The notes below the pieces were generated by a model. That model was given only the letters and a program-made list of their open reading frames with translations, ran no database searches and had not been told where the DNA came from. The translations under genes were made by a program, and so were the position numbers. Positions 25,368-32,048 of a stretch of DNA of 51,162 nucleotides are shown piece by piece. The stretch comes from Actinomycetota bacterium (GTDB taxonomy: Bacteria > Actinomycetota > Acidimicrobiia > IMCC26256 > PALSA-610). The stretch lies in the NCBI GenBank assembly GCA_003134555.1, contig PLBO01000113.1, forward strand, positions 75,374-126,535, read 5' to 3'. Within the stretch, counting starts at the first letter, position 1. Each line of letters starts with the position of its first letter.

Positions 25368-26612
25368 TTACAGGATCATTCCCGCGGCGAGGGTGTCGTT
25401 GCTCGCTTCGTCGACGAGGATGAACGAGCCCGTCGCGCGGTTGCGCCGGTAGTCGTCGAAGAACAGTGGCACGGTCGTACGCAGCGTCACCCGCCCGATC
25501 TCGTTGAGCGAGAGCGAGTCGGCATCCTCGTTCCGGTGCAGCGTGTTGACGTCGAGTCGGTAGTGCAGGTCCTTCACCAGTGCCCGCGTCCACTTCGACG
25601 TTTGCTTCAGCGCGTACTTGCCGCCGGGCTTGAGCGCCGCGCGCTCTCCGAACCAGCACAGCATCGCGTCGACGTCCTGGGCGATGTTCGGCTGGTTGTT
25701 GGGCCGGCAGATCATGTCGCCCCGGCTGACGTCGAGGTCGTCGGCGAGCCGGATCGTTACCGACATCGGCGGCACCGCTTCTTCGACCGGCCCGTCGGCG
25801 GTGTCGATCGACGCGATCCTCGACGCGAATCCCGAGGGCAGCACGACCACGTCGTCACCGACCTTGTAGGAGCCGCTCGCGACCTGACCCGCGTAGCCGC
25901 GGTAGTCGTGGTGCTTGTCGTCGCGAGGCCGGATCACGTACTGCACCGGGAAGCGGCAGTCGATGAGGTTGCGGTCGGAGGCGATGTGCACCTCTTCGAG
26001 GTGGTGCAGCAGCGACGTGCCCTCGTACCACGGCGTGTTCGCCGACCGGTCGACGACGTTGTCGCCGTTCAGCGCCGACATCGGGACGAACTGGAGGTCG
26101 CGCACGTCGAGCTTGGCCGCGAAATCGCGGAACTCGGTCTTGATGCGCTCGAAGACCGCCTGGTCGTAGTCGACGAGGTCCATCTTGTTGACGCACAGCA
26201 CGAGGTGGGGCACGCCGAGCAGCGACGCGAGGAACGCGTGCCGGCGTGACTGTTCGATGATGCCCTTGCGCGCGTCGACCAGGATCAGCGCGAGGTCGGC
26301 CGTCGACGCGCCCGTCACCATGTTGCGCGTGTACTGCACGTGCCCCGGCGTGTCGGCGATGATGAACTTGCGACGCGGCGTCGCGAAGTAGCGGTACGCG
26401 ACGTCGATCGTGATGCCCTGCTCGCGCTCGGCCCGAAGTCCGTCGGTCAAGAGGGCGAGGTTCATCCCTTCCTCGCCGCGGAGCATCGTCGAGTGTTCCA
26501 GCGCCTCGAGGGTGTCCTCGAAGATCTGTTTCGAGTCGTACAGCAGGCGACCGATGAGCGTCGACTTGCCGTCGTCGACCGAGCCTGCGGTCGCGAATCG
26601 CAAGAGCTCCAC
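25368..26612 (-). CDS. cysN: Sulfate adenylyltransferase large subunit CysN (GTPase)
   Basis: 414 residues from GTG 26612, which overlaps the cysD stop by one base (TAGTG). It hydrolyses GTP to drive APS synthesis by CysD. G motifs are TAGSVDDGKSTLIGRLL, ADTPGHVQYTRNM (DTPGH) and CVNKMDLVDYD. Domains 2 and 3 of the EF-Tu-like fold follow (FPVQYVIRPRDDKHHDYRGY, DVSRGDMICRPNNQP, GRVTLRTTVPLFFDDY). There is no C-terminal APS kinase (CysC) domain, unlike the fused mycobacterial CysNC. That fits the downstream use of APS rather than PAPS by the CysH here. Confidence 0.95.
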   Translation of the reverse strand: MELLRFATAGSVDDGKSTLIGRLLYDSKQIFEDTLEALEHSTMLRGEEGMNLALLTDGLRAEREQGITIDVAYRYFATPRRKFIIADTPGHVQYTRNMVTGASTADLALILVDARKGIIEQSRRHAFLASLLGVPHLVLCVNKMDLVDYDQAVFERIKTEFRDFAAKLDVRDLQFVPMSALNGDNVVDRSANTPWYEGTSLLHHLEEVHIASDRNLIDCRFPVQYVIRPRDDKHHDYRGYAGQVASGSYKVGDDVVVLPSGFASRIASIDTADGPVEEAVPPMSVTIRLADDLDVSRGDMICRPNNQPNIAQDVDAMLCWFGERAALKPGGKYALKQTSKWTRALVKDLHYRLDVNTLHRNEDADSLSLNEIGRVTLRTTVPLFFDDYRRNRATGSFILVDEASNDTLAAGMIL

Positions 26613-27517
26613 TAGAAGTATCCCTCCCGCTTGCGATCTTCCATCGCGGCTTCCGAGAACTTGTCGTCGGCGCGGGTCGCGCCGCGTTCGGTGACGCGAG
26701 ACGCCGCGACTTCGGCGATCACGTCGGCGATCGAGGCCGCGGTCGACGCGACGGCTGCGGTGCACGTTGCGTCGCCGACCGTGCGGTAGCGCACCGTTGC
26801 CTCGAAGACCTCCTCGCCCTCGCCCGGCCGCAGGAATTCGGTCACTGCCATCAGCATGCTGTCGCGCCGGAACACGTTGCGCCGGTGTGCGTAGTAGATG
26901 GAGGGAAGCTCGATCTCCTCGTCGGCGATGTACTGCCAGATGTCGAGCTCGGTCCAGTTCGAGAGCGGGAACACGCGAATGTGCTCACCCTTGCGGTGCC
27001 GTCCGTTGTAGAGCGACCAGATCTCGGGACGCTGGTTCTTCGGGTCCCATTGACCGAACTCGTCGCGAAACGAGAAGAAGCGCTCCTTCGCGCGCGCCTT
27101 CTCCTCGTCGCGGCGGGCGCCACCCATCACGGCGTCGAACCCGTGCTGTTCGACCGCGTCGAGGAGCGTTGTGGTCTGCAGGCGGTTACGCGACGCGCGC
27201 GGCCCCGTCTCCTCGACGACCCGGCCCGTGTCGATCGACGCTTGTACTGAAGCGACGACGAGGTTGACGTCGAGCCTCTCGACGGACGAGTCGCGAAACT
27301 CGATGACCTCGGGAAAGTTGTGGCCGGTGTCGATGTGCATGACCGGGAACGGCAGCCGTGCGGGCCAGAAGGCCTTCTTGGCGATGTGCAGCATCACGAC
27401 GCTGTCCTTGCCGCCCGAGAAGAGCAGGACCGGCCGTTCGAACTCGGCCGCCACCTCGCGCAGGAGATGGATCGACTCCGATTCGAGCGCGTCGAGATGA
27501 GAGATCAGCCGATGCAT
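26612..27517 (-). CDS. cysD: Sulfate adenylyltransferase subunit 2 CysD
   Basis: 301 residues from ATG 27517. An ATP-pyrophosphatase-fold enzyme making adenosine 5'-phosphosulfate with CysN. Motifs are PVLLFSGGKDSVVMLHIAKK (PP-loop), PFPVMHIDTGHNFPEVIEFR, FDAVMGGARRDEEKARAKER, FPLSNWTELDIWQYI and YYAHRRNVFRRDSM; it ends DDKFSEAAMEDRKREGYF. Length matches the family (about 300). It is 20 bp after cysH and is coupled to cysN. The ribosome site is weak (AGAAAG). Confidence 0.96.
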   Translation of the reverse strand: MHRLISHLDALESESIHLLREVAAEFERPVLLFSGGKDSVVMLHIAKKAFWPARLPFPVMHIDTGHNFPEVIEFRDSSVERLDVNLVVASVQASIDTGRVVEETGPRASRNRLQTTTLLDAVEQHGFDAVMGGARRDEEKARAKERFFSFRDEFGQWDPKNQRPEIWSLYNGRHRKGEHIRVFPLSNWTELDIWQYIADEEIELPSIYYAHRRNVFRRDSMLMAVTEFLRPGEGEEVFEATVRYRTVGDATCTAAVASTAASIADVIAEVAASRVTERGATRADDKFSEAAMEDRKREGYF

Positions 27518-27537: not shown

Positions 27538-28248
27538 TCAGGCCCCGGGCCACCCGTGAAGTCCGCACTCCATTTTGCCTTGTCCGGACCAGCGTCCGGA
27601 ACGGGGGTCTTCGCCGGGGGCCACCCGACGCGTGCACGGCCAGCACCCGATGGAGGGGTAGCCCTGGGACGCGAGGGGGTGTTCGAGGAGCTCGTGATCG
27701 TGCTTGTAAGCGGCGATGTCGGCGTCGGTCCAGGTCGCGAGCGGGTTGACCTTGACGATCCCGCGGCCGACGTCGAGATGCGCAATCGGGGCATTTGTGC
27801 GTGTCGGCGACTCGGCTCGGCGCAAACCCGTCATCCACGCCTGCTTGCCCCGGAGGGCGCGGGCCAGAGGCTCCACCTTGCGCATCGCGCAGCACTCGTC
27901 CTGGTCGGTCTGCCAGAGGTCGTCCGGAGATACGAGGGGCTGCATCACGGTGAGGTTGAGGTCGTAGCGCTCGCGCACGCGTTCGACGTACCAGAGCGTC
28001 TCTGCGAAGTGGTACTGCGTGTCGAGGAACACGACCTCGATGCCGGGCGCGGCTTTGGCCGCGACGTCGACGAGAACGCAATCCTGGAACGAGGCCGCAA
28101 GCACGACATCGGTGCCGTAGCGTTCCCACGCCCACTTGATGGCGCTCGACGCGGGCTTGCGTTCGAGCTCGGCCGACACGGCGGCGAGCTCCGCCAGGTC
28201 GACGTCTACCAACGGCCGATCGACGGTCACAGGATCCAGAAGGCTCAT
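27538..28248 (-). CDS. cysH: Assimilatory adenylyl-sulfate (APS) reductase, CysH family with [4Fe-4S] motif
   Basis: 236 residues from ATG 28248, overlapping the sir stop (ATGA). It reduces APS to sulfite. The PP-loop-like fold has VVLAASFQDCVLVD and VFLDTQYHFAETLWYVERV. The iron-sulfur cysteines C119-C120 (DECCAMRKV) and C202/C205 (IGCWPCTR) mark the APS-using type. The catalytic Cys228 lies in MECGLHG. PAPS-only enzymes lack the CC...CxxC set. Longer upstream frames are sir shadow. Confidence 0.94.
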   Translation of the reverse strand: MSLLDPVTVDRPLVDVDLAELAAVSAELERKPASSAIKWAWERYGTDVVLAASFQDCVLVDVAAKAAPGIEVVFLDTQYHFAETLWYVERVRERYDLNLTVMQPLVSPDDLWQTDQDECCAMRKVEPLARALRGKQAWMTGLRRAESPTRTNAPIAHLDVGRGIVKVNPLATWTDADIAAYKHDHELLEHPLASQGYPSIGCWPCTRRVAPGEDPRSGRWSGQGKMECGLHGWPGA

Positions 28249-30035
28249 GTCGCCGCGCACTCCCCGTCGCCTACTTCGGCGACATAGGGACCGGTTTCGT
28301 CGTAGTCGACGTAGAACTCGGGGCCGACGTCGGGTGCGGGGAACTGGTCGAGATCGGCGAGCGTGCCACCCACGCCTTTGGCACCACCCGAACGCGCGAG
28401 CCACGTCTGGAACATCTCGCCCGACTGTCGCTCCTCGTTGAAGCGCCGGACGACCCGCACGACCGCTTCCGGAGCGCTCTTGGCGGGAACCTTGGTGGCC
28501 TTGTCGCCGAACTCGACCTCGGTCTCGGCCAGGTGCCCACCGAGGAGCATCTGGTATCCCGGTGCCGCGCGTCCGTGCGCCCGGCGCTCGAGCCCGAAGA
28601 AGCCGATGTCGGAGACGTGGTGCTGGCCGCAACTGTTGGTGCAGCCCGAGATGTTCACGCGCACGCCCGGAACCTCGGCCAGGCCGGCTTCCTCGAGCGC
28701 ATCGCCGACCGCGGCGGCCAGGCCGCGCGACTGCGTCACCGCGAGGTTGCAGGTGTCGGCGCCCGGGCACGAGACGACGTCGCGGGCGAGCTCCGCGCCC
28801 GCCTGCGCCATCCCGATGTCGCTCAAGCGGTCGTAGAGCGGGCGGAGGTCGGCCTCGCTCAGGTCGCGCAGTGCGAGGTTCTGGCGGTTCGTGATGCGAA
28901 TGTCGAGCCCGAGGTCGCGCTGGATGTCGGCGAGGGCGCGGAACTGATCGGCGGTGATGTCGCCGAGCCGCGAGTACGCGACCGCGCTCACCGTGCCCCG
29001 CGCGACGCCGCGCACGACGTTCGCTTCCTGCCAGCGGTCGTACGGGTCGCTCGAGAGGAGCTTGACGGGAACGTGCGCGGCACCGACCTTCGTGGCCGTC
29101 GGCGTTCCGCCGGCGGGCGCGTCTCCGACCGCGCGCACCTGCTCCGGAATGCCCCACGGCCAGTCGCGTGCGCCGCGCAGGAACTTGCGTTCGCGGAAGA
29201 TGCGCTCACGGAGCTCGTCGATTCCCATCGAGTCGACGAGCCACTTCATGCGCGCACGGATCTTGTTGTCGCGGTTGCCGTAGTGGTCGAAGGTGCGCAG
29301 GCACGAGTAGATGGTCGGCAACAGCTCTTCGCGGGGCGTGAACTCCTCGAGGGCCTGGGCGGGATGCGGGTTGGCGCCGAGCCCGCCGGCGATGAACACC
29401 CGGAAACCGGCCTCGGTGGTGCCGTCGGGGAGAGTGCGCGTGGTTGCGACCACACCGACGTCGTTGAACATCGCCTGGCCGCAGTCGGTCGCGCATCCCG
29501 AGAAGTTGATCTTGAACTTCCGGGGCAGCCGTTGCCCGTACGGGTGCCGGAGCAGGAAGTCGGTCGTCGCCTGCGCCCACGGTGTGATGTCGAGAACCTC
29601 CTGCGGGCACGCGCCGGCGAGGTGGCAGCCCATGACGTTGCGAACAGTGTCGCCGCACGCCTCCCTCGACGTCAGCCCGACCGACGCCATGAGTCGAAGG
29701 ATCTCGGGCGATTGCTCCAACGGGATGAAGTGGAACTGCACGTTCTGACGCGTCGTGAGATGACCCCAGCCCCGCGAATAGTTGTCGGAGATGTACGCGA
29801 ACGTGTCGAGCTGTTCGGCCGTGATGCGACCGTGCGGGATCTTGATCCGCAGCATCTGCGCGTGCCCACCCTGGCGCTGGCCGTAGACGCCGTGGTTCAG
29901 GCGGAAGACGCGGAACGTGTCCTCGTCTACGCGCCCGTCGAGGTAATCGGCGACGGTGCGCTCGAAGATGTCGAGCTCTTCGGCGACGATCGGTTCGAGC
30001 GGGCGGGTCGCGAGATCGCGGACGTCGATCGCCAT
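28245..30035 (-). CDS. sir: Ferredoxin-type sulfite/nitrite reductase (siroheme, [4Fe-4S])
   Basis: 596 residues from ATG 30035 with AGGGAG eight nt upstream. It reduces sulfite to sulfide (or nitrite to ammonia) by six electrons. Siroheme/cluster ligands are C423 and C429 (SCPGADTCNLAVTQSRG) and C465/C469 (NISGCTNSCGQHHVSD). Other family segments are RIKIPHGRITAEQLDTFAYI, GWGHLTTRQNVQFHF and GDTVRNVMGCHLAGACPQEV. The context with cysH-cysD-cysN argues for sulfite as substrate. The N-terminal half keeps a matching SGCATDCGQ (C181, C185) and C127/C137, more cysteines than the usual degenerate half. No FNR or ferredoxin gene is in the window. Confidence 0.93.
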   Translation of the reverse strand: MAIDVRDLATRPLEPIVAEELDIFERTVADYLDGRVDEDTFRVFRLNHGVYGQRQGGHAQMLRIKIPHGRITAEQLDTFAYISDNYSRGWGHLTTRQNVQFHFIPLEQSPEILRLMASVGLTSREACGDTVRNVMGCHLAGACPQEVLDITPWAQATTDFLLRHPYGQRLPRKFKINFSGCATDCGQAMFNDVGVVATTRTLPDGTTEAGFRVFIAGGLGANPHPAQALEEFTPREELLPTIYSCLRTFDHYGNRDNKIRARMKWLVDSMGIDELRERIFRERKFLRGARDWPWGIPEQVRAVGDAPAGGTPTATKVGAAHVPVKLLSSDPYDRWQEANVVRGVARGTVSAVAYSRLGDITADQFRALADIQRDLGLDIRITNRQNLALRDLSEADLRPLYDRLSDIGMAQAGAELARDVVSCPGADTCNLAVTQSRGLAAAVGDALEEAGLAEVPGVRVNISGCTNSCGQHHVSDIGFFGLERRAHGRAAPGYQMLLGGHLAETEVEFGDKATKVPAKSAPEAVVRVVRRFNEERQSGEMFQTWLARSGGAKGVGGTLADLDQFPAPDVGPEFYVDYDETGPYVAEVGDGECAAT

Positions 30036-30096
30036 GAGGCGGCTCCCTGACGGGCGGGCGGAAGAGGACGGACGGCGGGGCGGGTGAGCGGGGCCG
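30036..30096 (-). promoter_or_regulatory. Leader segment between sORF stop and sir start with competing stems
   Basis: On the minus strand, CTGACGG (30100-30094, containing the sORF stop) is a perfect complement of CCGTCAG (30053-30047), which touches the sir Shine-Dalgarno AGGGAG (30048-30043). A rival pairing, GACGGC (30098-30093) with GCCGTC (30076-30071), would leave the Shine-Dalgarno free. A ribosome at the sORF stop would cover the shared arm. Confidence 0.4.
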
Positions 30097-30189
30097 TCAG
30101 CGGGAGCGGACGAGACTGAGCTCGTCGCGTACCTCGTGCGGCGTGCGGCCCATGAAGATGCTCGCAGCGCCCACTACCCGCAGAATCAT
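30097..30189 (-). CDS. 30-residue leader ORF upstream of the sulfite reductase operon
   Basis: ATG 30189 to TGA 30097 encodes a peptide starting MILRVVGAASIFMGRTPHEV and ending DELSLVRSR. TAGGGT lies 6 nt before the ATG, as at other leaderless genes here, so the operon mRNA probably begins at this ATG. The sir start is 61 nt after the stop. Cys-rich uORFs precede sulfur-assimilation operons in mycobacteria; this one has no cysteine, so simple cysteine attenuation does not apply. It could be a coding leader or a small protein. The gene is below normal length cut-offs, so confidence is moderate. Confidence 0.5.
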   Translation of the reverse strand: MILRVVGAASIFMGRTPHEVRDELSLVRSR

Positions 30190-30195
30190 GAATCC

Positions 30196-30201
30196 ACCCT
30201 A
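30196..30201 (-). promoter_or_regulatory. -10 element TAGGGT of the sir operon
   Basis: Read on the minus strand, TAGGGT ends 6 nt before ATG 30189. It is the only TANNNT element placed to drive the sORF-sir-cysHDN transcript. No convincing -35. Confidence 0.5.
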
Positions 30202-30231
30202 CGCCGCTCGACGGTGAAATACCAGTTCCAA

Positions 30232-30284
30232 GGTCGGGAATTTCTCCGACCACCGTGGTCAACATTCGGCAGCCGTCAACATTC
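30232..30284. promoter_or_regulatory. Palindrome and direct-repeat cluster between sir operon and proS
   Basis: Three symmetric elements lie together. GGTCGG (30232-30237) and CCGACC (30246-30251) flank 8 bp. GACCAC-C-GTGGTC (30248-30260) is a perfect 13-bp palindrome overlapping the first. GTCAACATTC occurs twice in direct order (30258-30267 and 30275-30284). They sit upstream of both divergent promoters and look like regulator binding sites. No regulator gene is adjacent. This and the sORF account for the 306-bp stretch between sir and proS. Confidence 0.45.
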
Positions 30285-30327
30285 CTCGGCACCTCGGAAC
30301 GGAACATGCGGCTCCGGAGGCCGCCGG

Positions 30328-30333
30328 TAGCCT
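30328..30333 (+). promoter_or_regulatory. -10 element TAGCCT, leaderless proS
   Basis: TAGCCT lies 8 nt before ATG 30342. A longer frame from GTG 30255 would contain the promoter and is rejected. Confidence 0.5.
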
Positions 30334-30341
30334 CGGCGCCC

Positions 30342-32048
30342 ATGCGGATGAGCTCCCTGTTCTTGCGTACCTTGCGCGACGACCCCGCCGACGCCGAGGT
30401 CGAGAGCCACCGCTTGCTCGTCCGGGCGGGCTACATCCGCCGGGTCAGCGCCGGGATCTATTCGTGGCTCCCGCTGGGCTACCGGGTACTCCGAAAGGTC
30501 GAACAGATCGTCCGGGAGGAGATGGACGCGGCCGGCGCCCAAGAGGTCCTGCTGTCGATCGTGCAGCCCCTCGAGCTCTGGGACCGCAGCGGCCGCGACA
30601 AGGCGTACGGCCCCGTGATGTTCCGCCTCCACGACCGGAAGGAGACCGGCTACTGCCTGTCGCCGACGGCGGAGGAGTTGGTGACGAGCATCGTCGCCCA
30701 GGAGTACGGGTCGTACCGCGACCTGCCGGTGACCCTCTACCAGATCAACTGGAAGTACCGCGACGAGCTGCGGCCGCGATTTGGTCTGTTGCGCGGGCGC
30801 GAGTTCCTGATGAAAGACGCGTACTCGTTCGACGTCGATCTCGACGCGTTCCGGGCGAGCTACCGGCAGATGTACGACGCATACCAGCGCGTGTTCGAGC
30901 GGTGCGCGCTGACGTTCCGCGCGGTCGAGGCCGACTCGGGCGAGATGGGCGGTTCGGAGAGCCGCGAGTTCATGGCCGTCGCCGCGGTGGGCGAGGACGA
31001 CTTCGTGTGGTGCCCGAATTGCGAGTACGCGGCCAACGTGGAAGCGGCGCGCCGCGGCGCGGGCGCGGACCCGACAGCAGGCGCGGGAGAGCAGCCTCCG
31101 ACGGAGGAGGTACACACGCCCGACGTGCCTGGTATCGCGGGCGTCGCCGACCTCCTGAAGGTCGAGCCGAACACGTTGTTGAAGTCGATCATGTTCGACG
31201 TCGACGGCAAGCTCGGGCTCGCGATCGTGCCCGGCGACCGTGAGGTCAACGAGCTCGCGCTCGCCGCGGCGCTCGCGCCGAGGCCGGTTCGCCTCTACGG
31301 CGACGACGACTTCACGGCCCATCCCGAGCTCCCGAAGGGCTACGTCGGCCCGCACTATTCGGGGGCGAGTGTCGTCGTCGCCGATCCGATGGTGCGCTCC
31401 GGGTCGGCGTGGGTCACTGGCGCGAACCGCGTCGACCATCACGCACGCAACATGGTTCTGGGTCGCGACTTCGCCGTCGACGTGTGGGCCGACATCGTCA
31501 GCGTCGTCCGCGGCGATCCGTGCCCGCGCTGCGGCGAACCGCTGTCGATCGATCGAGGCATCGAGGTCGGCCACGTCTTCAACCTCGGCACCAAGTTCAG
31601 CGAAGCACTCGACGCGCGTTACACGGACGAGAAGGGTGAACAGCACCCGATGGTGATGGGTTGCTACGGCATCGGGGTCTCTCGCGTCGTCGCCGCGGTC
31701 GCGGAGGAATACCACGACGAGCACGGTCTCGCGTGGCCCGCGGCCCTCGCCCCCTACGCGGTGCACCTCATCGCCGTGCCGGGTCGGGGTGAGCAGGCCG
31801 CGTCGGTGACTGCGGAGGCCGAACGCGTCTACGAAGAGCTGCGAGGGCGGGGGATCGACGTGCTCTTCGACGACCGCGACGTGAGCCCGGGCGTGAAGTT
31901 CGCGGATGCCGACCTCGTGGGGATGCCCGTCCAGCTCGTGGTGGGTGCGAAGGGTGTGGGCCGCGGCGTGATCGAGCGGAAGGTGCGCGCCACGGGTGCC
32001 CGCGACGAGCTCCCCTTGCGCGACGTGTCCGATCCCCGCGTGCCGTAA
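30342..32048 (+). CDS. proS: Prolyl-tRNA synthetase (bacterial type with editing insertion)
   Basis: 568 residues, class II synthetase charging tRNA-Pro. Motif 1 region: YIRRVSAGIYSWLPLGYRVL. Motif 2: PRFGLLRGREFLMKDAYSFD. Motif 3: VMGCYGIGVSRVVAAVAEEY. The editing (INS) domain lies between motifs 2 and 3 (about residues 220-400; PDVPGIAGVADLLKV, MFDVDGKLGLAIVPGDREVN). The C-terminal anticodon-binding domain has YEELRGRGIDVLFDDRD and KFADADLVGMPVQLVVG. Length fits the bacterial ProRS of about 570. It is monocistronic and convergent with the next gene. Confidence 0.96.
   Translation: MRMSSLFLRTLRDDPADAEVESHRLLVRAGYIRRVSAGIYSWLPLGYRVLRKVEQIVREEMDAAGAQEVLLSIVQPLELWDRSGRDKAYGPVMFRLHDRKETGYCLSPTAEELVTSIVAQEYGSYRDLPVTLYQINWKYRDELRPRFGLLRGREFLMKDAYSFDVDLDAFRASYRQMYDAYQRVFERCALTFRAVEADSGEMGGSESREFMAVAAVGEDDFVWCPNCEYAANVEAARRGAGADPTAGAGEQPPTEEVHTPDVPGIAGVADLLKVEPNTLLKSIMFDVDGKLGLAIVPGDREVNELALAAALAPRPVRLYGDDDFTAHPELPKGYVGPHYSGASVVVADPMVRSGSAWVTGANRVDHHARNMVLGRDFAVDVWADIVSVVRGDPCPRCGEPLSIDRGIEVGHVFNLGTKFSEALDARYTDEKGEQHPMVMGCYGIGVSRVVAAVAEEYHDEHGLAWPAALAPYAVHLIAVPGRGEQAASVTAEAERVYEELRGRGIDVLFDDRDVSPGVKFADADLVGMPVQLVVGAKGVGRGVIERKVRATGARDELPLRDVSDPRVP

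Follow-up and report, generated by a model that had tools for sequence, protein, structure and literature searches.

A conserved leaderless leader peptide ahead of the sulfite reductase operon of Acidimicrobiia and its probable role in sulfur sensing

In the tnaC leader of E. coli, a nascent chain, amino-acid status, and Rho act together, and arrest occurs at the stop codon through free tryptophan. Leader peptides with runs of cysteine codons are predicted by PMC1262725 to precede cys operons in mycobacteria, P. acnes, and B. longum, and PMC4633059 describes those of mycobacteria as seen by ribosome profiling. Canestrari et al. 2020 put polycysteine leaderless sORFs to the test in M. smegmatis, according to the accounts given in PMC9031893, PMC9094748, and PMC13236596. 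A further case is CruR (DUF2946) of Bordetella, which is presented as a copper-responsive, operon-heading uORF whose nascent product gates Rho, as shown experimentally; it senses copper through a CXXC motif and arrests on a C-terminal RAPP motif (PMC9426467). Before cysS in Rhodobacterales, the uORFC-8-2 motif is described as having two tandem Cys codons, with UGC dominating, together with an intrinsic terminator (PMC8632094). We found no paper on the peptide described below in the open-access literature on leader peptides, cysteine attenuation, arrest peptides, and Acidimicrobiia.

The locus compared here with these systems lies in a window of 51,162 nt, the whole stretch of DNA that was analyzed (contig PLBO01000113.1, Acidimicrobiia), and its features are collected in Table 1. 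The last two genes of the operon are presumably cysD and cysN, giving the order sir-cysH-cysD-cysN. A preliminary description of this DNA had placed a leaderless leader peptide ahead of the sulfate-reduction operon, and this was confirmed: the minus strand reads as a 30-codon ORF from an ATG at 30189 to a TGA at 30099-30097, preceded by TAGGGT at 30201-30196, with no Cys codon among its 30 codons. The same TAnnnT pattern occurs 6-7 nt 5' of the start codon at 30 of 32 uORF loci, a spacing that, judged from sequence, would be expected of a leaderless mRNA.

Table 1. Features of the sir leader and operon within the window, from promoter to last gene
Feature	Position	Strand	Basis
Promoter-proximal element: GGTCGG (30251-30246), CCGACC (30237-30232), CTGGTATTT (30225-30217)	30217..30251	minus	conservation
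-10 box TAGGGT, 6 nt 5' of uORF ATG	30196..30201	minus	TAnnnT common to 30/32 loci
Leaderless uORF, 30 codons + TGA, MILRVVGAASIFMGRTPHEVRDELSLVRSR	30097..30189	minus	homologues in 31 other genomes
Conserved part of the peptide, codons 1-24 (M..DEL)	30118..30189	minus	selection within genus, residue invariance over 32 rows
Codon 25 (AGT, Ser), where other genera have UGU (Cys)	30115..30117	minus	alignment of 32 uORFs
Hairpin over uORF stop, GACGGC (30098-30093)/GCCGTC (30076-30071), centre ~36 nt past codon 25	30068..30101	minus	folding
Leader rich in C and poor in G (47 nt with 29 C, 10 G), a candidate site for Rho binding	30050..30096	minus	composition
CCGTCAG, proposed anti-RBS partner adjoining AGGGAG; unsupported as working element	30047..30053	minus	folding
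AGGGAG, Shine-Dalgarno-like site of sir	30043..30048	minus	sequence
sir, nitrite/sulfite reductase, first gene 3' of uORF	28245..30035	minus	Pfam PF01077, PF03460
cysH-like, PAPS/APS reductase domain	27538..28248	minus	PF01507, E 7e-42
cysD-like frame, sulfate adenylyltransferase small subunit, start codon approximate	26612..27508	minus	PF01507, E 9e-46
cysN-like, sulfate adenylyltransferase large subunit, GTPase	25368..26699	minus	PF00009, PF22594

Just upstream of the start lies a conserved element, ATTCC(C/T)GACC-N6-CTGG(T/C)ATTT, often with a matching GGTCGG at its left, which is a probable transcription-factor site combined with the -35 region. Its palindromic part, GGTCGG-N8-CCGACC, followed by CTGGTATTT, keeps a fixed spacing to the -10 box throughout the order and is retained at several loci that have no uORF (L065, L066, and L075-L077). 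This element is probably the site of a sulfur regulator. Sir promoters elsewhere in the class (L098-L134) often carry a related TTGACC..AGTCRGGTTT. Within the window's own genome, the exact form TCCYGACC-N6-CTGGYATTT has one match, the sir promoter itself, and a search of that genome for a wider regulon, with 3 mismatches allowed, yielded 17 matches, only slightly above the 11 of the reversed control.

The preliminary description had raised the question of whether relatives carry the peptide upstream of sir or cysH. They do: the frame is kept, and it is intact in 32 genomes of the class. A nucleotide search combined with reading of upstream regions in 14 genomes of the window's family showed that other genera also carry this peptide ahead of sir. 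When a profile of 8 peptides was run against 395 genomes of the class (E < 1e-8), 32 genomes matched, each with a single strong copy, and all 32 matches read as intact uORFs. Thirty-one of these belong to the window's order (31/58 genomes), and G088 alone belongs to another family of the class. In a phylum sample of 396 genomes, the only matches were the window, G088, and a chance match within a long frame in G600; a phylum-level search for sir gave a match in 16 of 148 genomes. Scanning public species genomes with the degenerate pattern GRTPHExxDE yielded 36 matches, 23 of them to this short ORF and 13 of them lying in long unrelated frames (one at a contig end). Twenty-one of the short ORFs are labelled Actinomycetota, several of them Acidimicrobiia, and two are labelled Bifidobacterium breve. 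The latter two are MAGs (L166, CAMBEL010000012.1; L170, CAMDCC010000090.1) that carry an Acidimicrobiia-type sir leader under a B. breve title, and they look mislabelled. No relative of the peptide was found in 37 sir upstream regions of the class outside the order, where sir starts were assigned by rule. Three of these regions (L117, L131, and L133) pass a crude filter for leaderless ORFs, all unrelated in sequence, and L133 has two Cys codons.

The genes that follow the uORF are constant in theme. Sir comes directly after it at 29 of 32 loci, 58-153 nt past the stop, and the remaining three uORFs also head sulfur-assimilation genes: ATP sulfurylase and then sir in G109, a PAPS-reductase-type gene in G218, and a TauE/SafE exporter and then sir in G088. 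The uORF of G088 (L080, 1013-1911) is a divergent member, MQGLTTTVLRRRGAPSVAMGRTPHQAHDTRCMPLR, from outside the order, and the operon that it heads combines this sulfite exporter with sir.

Within the order, sir was detected at E <= 1e-60 in 48 of 58 genomes, and G010 has a truncated copy. Among these 49 sir-bearing genomes, the uORF is intact in 31, frameshifted in one (G007), and not recognisable in 15; in two (G009 and G085), the contig ends too near upstream of sir to judge. G007 was left out of the intact count for its one-base frameshift in a C run. There (L010) the deletion of one base breaks the uORF, and sir on the same contig is likewise split into two frames, so the break is likely a sequencing error. 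In two of the 15, G038 (L076) and G054 (L075), the promoter is intact, and what lies between it and sir is a decayed LIRxxxAA remnant (CTG ATC CGA ...), a snapshot of leader-peptide loss. The uORF has also been lost from G042 (L065) and G016 (L066), where the same promoter adjoins sir; because the -10 box lies ~8 nt before the sir start, sir may itself be leaderless in these two genomes. Since 15 in-order sir loci have no recognisable uORF, the uORF is dispensable over evolution.

Where it is present, the peptide is strongly constrained. The 32 uORFs give the consensus MIRxxGAPSISxGRTPHExxDE[L/M]C, with residues G, A, S, T, P, H, and D invariant across the aligned rows, followed by a tail that varies in length and sequence. 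The changes that separate the window from each of two congeners are all synonymous over codons 1-24 (5 of 5, Fisher p 0.0008); over codons 25-30, 4 are non-synonymous and 2-3 synonymous. Family-wide pN/pS, counted without L051, L057, and L080, is 0.28 in the core and 0.86 in the three codons past the Cys position, against control values of 1.02 after the stop and 1.7 and 2.6 in the two wrong frames. A Ka/Ks-type comparison, as envisaged in the preliminary description, thus bears out purifying selection up to codon 24 and drift thereafter. The loci are related by descent, so p-values here and below overstate independence. Because conservation is specific to the frame and stops at codon 25, it is the peptide, not the DNA, that is kept. 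Conserved RNA structure was considered as a cause of the conservation and rejected, RNAalifold having found no consensus structure within the uORF over the 32 aligned cores. Short ORFs are common, and a GC-rich leader could hold one by chance; we give that explanation practically no weight, as conservation and selection on the frame across homologues refute it. Strong conservation at the protein level would also be expected of a small protein that acts in trans or that joins the sulfur enzymes much as a subunit would. This we regard as highly improbable, for the tail varies in length and sequence, the frame is always first in the mRNA with no second strong copy elsewhere in the genomes, and 15 in-order sir-bearing genomes have lost it. 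The peptide also has no relative in Pfam or NCBIfam; a Pfam scan of 8 family members gave no match, and Rfam gave 0 matches at the gathering threshold over the whole window.

The position at which conservation ends has a peculiarity of its own. Codon 25 is TGT (Cys) in 29 of 32 uORFs; the other three, all from the window's genus, have AGT, GAT, and GAT. The preliminary description had set the window's peptide apart from Cys-rich uORFs because it has no cysteine; this is true of the window's genus (3/3), but elsewhere the peptide carries one UGU Cys codon (29/32). Only L038 has an adjacent second Cys codon, and the other Cys-bearing uORFs have a single one. UGU is thus fixed against genomic codon habit, as the sir genes of the same loci, related loci included, favor TGC over TGT by 240 to 9 (29/29 TGT in uORFs versus sir usage, Fisher 9e-32, 19 genera). 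All 32 uORFs end codon 25 in T, including those with Ser or Asp there, and they do so in genomes with a preference for C. UGU may be fixed because it is a slow codon, read by wobble, or because codon 25 takes part in a small hairpin (GCGACG-AGnnn-TGTCGC). The case for the small hairpin is weak: 75.9% of cells pair versus 73.0% when shuffled, with some two-sided changes.

These codon data bear on plain cysteine attenuation by tRNA charging, in which only the UGU would count and the peptide would be incidental, as in the mycobacterial polycysteine uORFs. TGT in 29 of 29 Cys-bearing uORFs, the sulfur operon context, and a close precedent within Actinobacteria all agree with it. We nevertheless consider it unlikely, given a single Cys codon everywhere except L038, 21-24 preceding residues under strong protein-level selection that codon counting would not need, and a genus without the Cys that has kept the peptide. 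In the window's genus the peptide is still selected after the loss of Cys, which argues for a role of the nascent chain in itself; in a device that still works in that genus, the signal would have to come from the nascent chain and not from Cys-tRNA.

Beyond codon 25, the RNA folds in a characteristic place. The window's hairpin over the uORF stop has a z of -3.14 (p 0.003) and a pair probability of 0.83, and in two congeners the stem is GACGAGC/GCTCGT(C/T), with arms that have changed yet still pair. Across 29 loci (near-duplicates L051, L057, and L032 left out of the hairpin counts), local folding relative to shuffles, anchored at codon 25, shows a single narrow minimum between +30 and +36 nt. 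The mean z is -2.07, -1.94, and -1.76 at +30, +33, and +36, with values of ~0 further on and a lesser dip at -30. Direct testing of the interval +14..+54 gave p < 0.05 at 17 of 29 loci, with a mean z of -2.05 and a Fisher combined p of 6e-18, whereas its flanks were weak before codon 25 (3/29 loci) and null past the hairpin (2/29). L032, tested alone, has the hairpin at p 0.043, and in G088 it is absent by the +14..+54 folding test. The GACGGC/GCCGTC stem of the preliminary description therefore survives as part of a hairpin conserved in position in most relatives, but no ribosome-dependent freeing of the RBS by it was seen.

This hairpin is better anchored by codon 25 than by the stop, if by a modest margin, because its offset is similar whether the stop lies 18 nt or 27-33 nt past codon 25. 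In six loci the stop is at 18 nt, and in five the best hairpin offset is 33-36. Best positions for individual loci scatter, with an sd of 16.6 nt measured from codon 25 and 19.5 nt measured from the stop. Counted from the first nucleotide of codon 25, the hairpin has its base ~16-19 nt downstream, which, from the size of a ribosome footprint, places it just ahead of a ribosome with codon 25 in the A site. Such an arrangement could also serve an arrest of the opposite sense, in which free cysteine, sulfide, or another sulfur compound, when plentiful, would bind to the nascent chain and stall the ribosome at codon 25, so that the hairpin forms and represses. A conserved chain that ends at codon 25, a hairpin just ahead of the ribosome there, and a peptide that persists without Cys in the window's genus would all suit this alternative. 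We find it quite doubtful, however, because it leaves the fixation of UGU over UGC unexplained and because UGU would slow ribosomes under cysteine shortage too.

The preliminary description had proposed translational attenuation, with CTGACGG in the stop region pairing with CCGTCAG at the sir RBS and a rival stem freeing that site. Both complementarities are present in the window, where CTGACGG spans the uORF stop at 30100-30094, and two congeners have a 6-nt version of the first; no such pairing was seen outside the genus. Taken alone, the 7-nt complementarity is borderline (p 0.056 in one test and 0.013 in another), and its pairing probability is 0.00 in the window, with 0.001 and 0.14 for the 6-nt form in the two congeners. 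Over 29 loci, the stop and RBS regions are not unusually complementary to each other (3.76 nt versus 3.93 nt in shuffles). In folding models of the same 29 loci, masking the RNA under a ribosome placed on codon 25 or on the stop leaves predicted RBS accessibility unchanged beyond what is seen in shuffled leaders (Wilcoxon p 0.35 to 0.87). The masking and complementarity tests left out L041, L052, and L080, in which sir is not directly downstream. Neither the RBS-sequestering stem nor attenuation acting through the RBS is upheld by these results, and we now rate translational attenuation as very unlikely.

Composition of the leader points elsewhere. From the uORF stop to the RBS, the C fraction is 0.513 and the G fraction 0.259, and C exceeds G in 26 of 26 leaders, a count without the near-duplicates L051, L057, and L032 and without L041, L052, and L080, where sir is not directly next. 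By comparison, the 16 upstream gaps of the window (sir gap included) have C 0.347 and G 0.321, with C > G in 9/16, and the 37 uORF-less sir upstream regions of the class have C 0.312 and G 0.279, with C > G in 21/37. Rho prefers a C-rich, G-poor stretch following a uORF stop. At the level of sequence, the C-rich leader is suggestive of Rho-dependent termination between the uORF and sir, although C-richness may serve another purpose, e.g., to keep the leader unstructured. No intrinsic terminator (a G+C-rich hairpin with a T run) occurs in 29950-30350. Because an intrinsic terminator and RBS sequestration are both unsupported, the readout is probably Rho.

Overall, the uORF probably makes the ribosome a sensor of sulfur or cysteine supply that controls the sir operon. 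As to how, we lean slightly toward an attenuator in which the nascent peptide helps to hold a leaderless ribosome at codon 25 and so gates the operon by sulfur status, probably via Rho. Under this attenuator model, the sir-cysH-cysD-cysN mRNA would start at the start codon of the leader peptide, and ribosomes would load without a leader. By the time codon 25 is read, MIRxxGAPSISxGRTPHExxDE(L/M) would lie entirely within the exit tunnel, and the ribosome would pause there, at UGU-Cys in most members and at AGU-Ser in the window. The length of the pause may be set by sulfur or cysteine status, through charged Cys-tRNA at UGU, through the nascent chain, or through the two together. While it waits at codon 25, a ribosome would leave the hairpin 16-19 nt ahead folded, and one that reaches the stop would melt it and release the C-rich RNA behind it. 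With cysteine plentiful, the free C-rich leader would most likely let Rho terminate before sir; with cysteine scarce, the held ribosome would prevent Rho termination, much as in tnaC and CruR. We favor stalling upon starvation as the way to exclude Rho, in line with the arrest in CruR, since cysteine is what the operon makes; arrest by a sulfur ligand is a less likely alternative. With a ribosome at codon 25 the C-rich stretch is left uncovered, and the geometry does not explain how Rho would be blocked. A more specific version, which we offer only tentatively, is that of a new sulfur-sensing arrest-peptide family, in which GAPSISxGRTPHExxDE(L/M) would position the leaderless ribosome on one obligatory UGU, the hairpin 16-19 nt ahead would be the readout, and in the window's genus the chain itself would be the sensor.

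Set against the known systems, the sir leader would share with tnaC a sequence-specific nascent chain, amino-acid status, and Rho, but tnaC arrests at its stop by free tryptophan, and we know of no sequence relation between the two peptides. Like uORFC-8-2, it has a Cys codon in a uORF with stem-loops ahead of a cysteine-related gene; that motif differs in its tandem, mostly UGC codons, its terminator, its phylum, and its gene. With CruR it has in common an operon-heading uORF and a conserved nascent chain, probably also sensing by arrest and Rho; the chain is conserved up to the putative arrest site (pN/pS 0.28, versus 0.86 past it). The sequences are unrelated, however, and the 8 sir-leader members scanned have no Pfam match. 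The mycobacterial polycysteine uORFs resemble it in being leaderless short ORFs that stand first in sulfur or cysteine operons of Actinomycetota, with Cys codons near the ORF end and no intrinsic terminator. They differ in having a Cys run, where the sir leader has one codon, always UGU, and none at all in the window's genus, and where it adds a long conserved peptide and a hairpin at a fixed distance from codon 25, with RBS sequestration unsupported. As a Cys run is lacking, we do not file the sir-leader family with the polycysteine attenuators, although it may work on similar lines. Against the polycysteine runs described in mycobacteria, the sir leader shows one Cys codon, a UGU that is strictly kept, behind a long conserved peptide, and it does so in a class of Actinomycetota whose members are mostly uncultured. 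Because the peptide is absent from Pfam and NCBIfam, the consensus reported above should allow others to recognise it. If the proposed reading is true, codon sensing and nascent-chain sensing would be joined in one device, and the window's genus, which dropped the Cys and kept the peptide, would be a natural experiment that separates the two.
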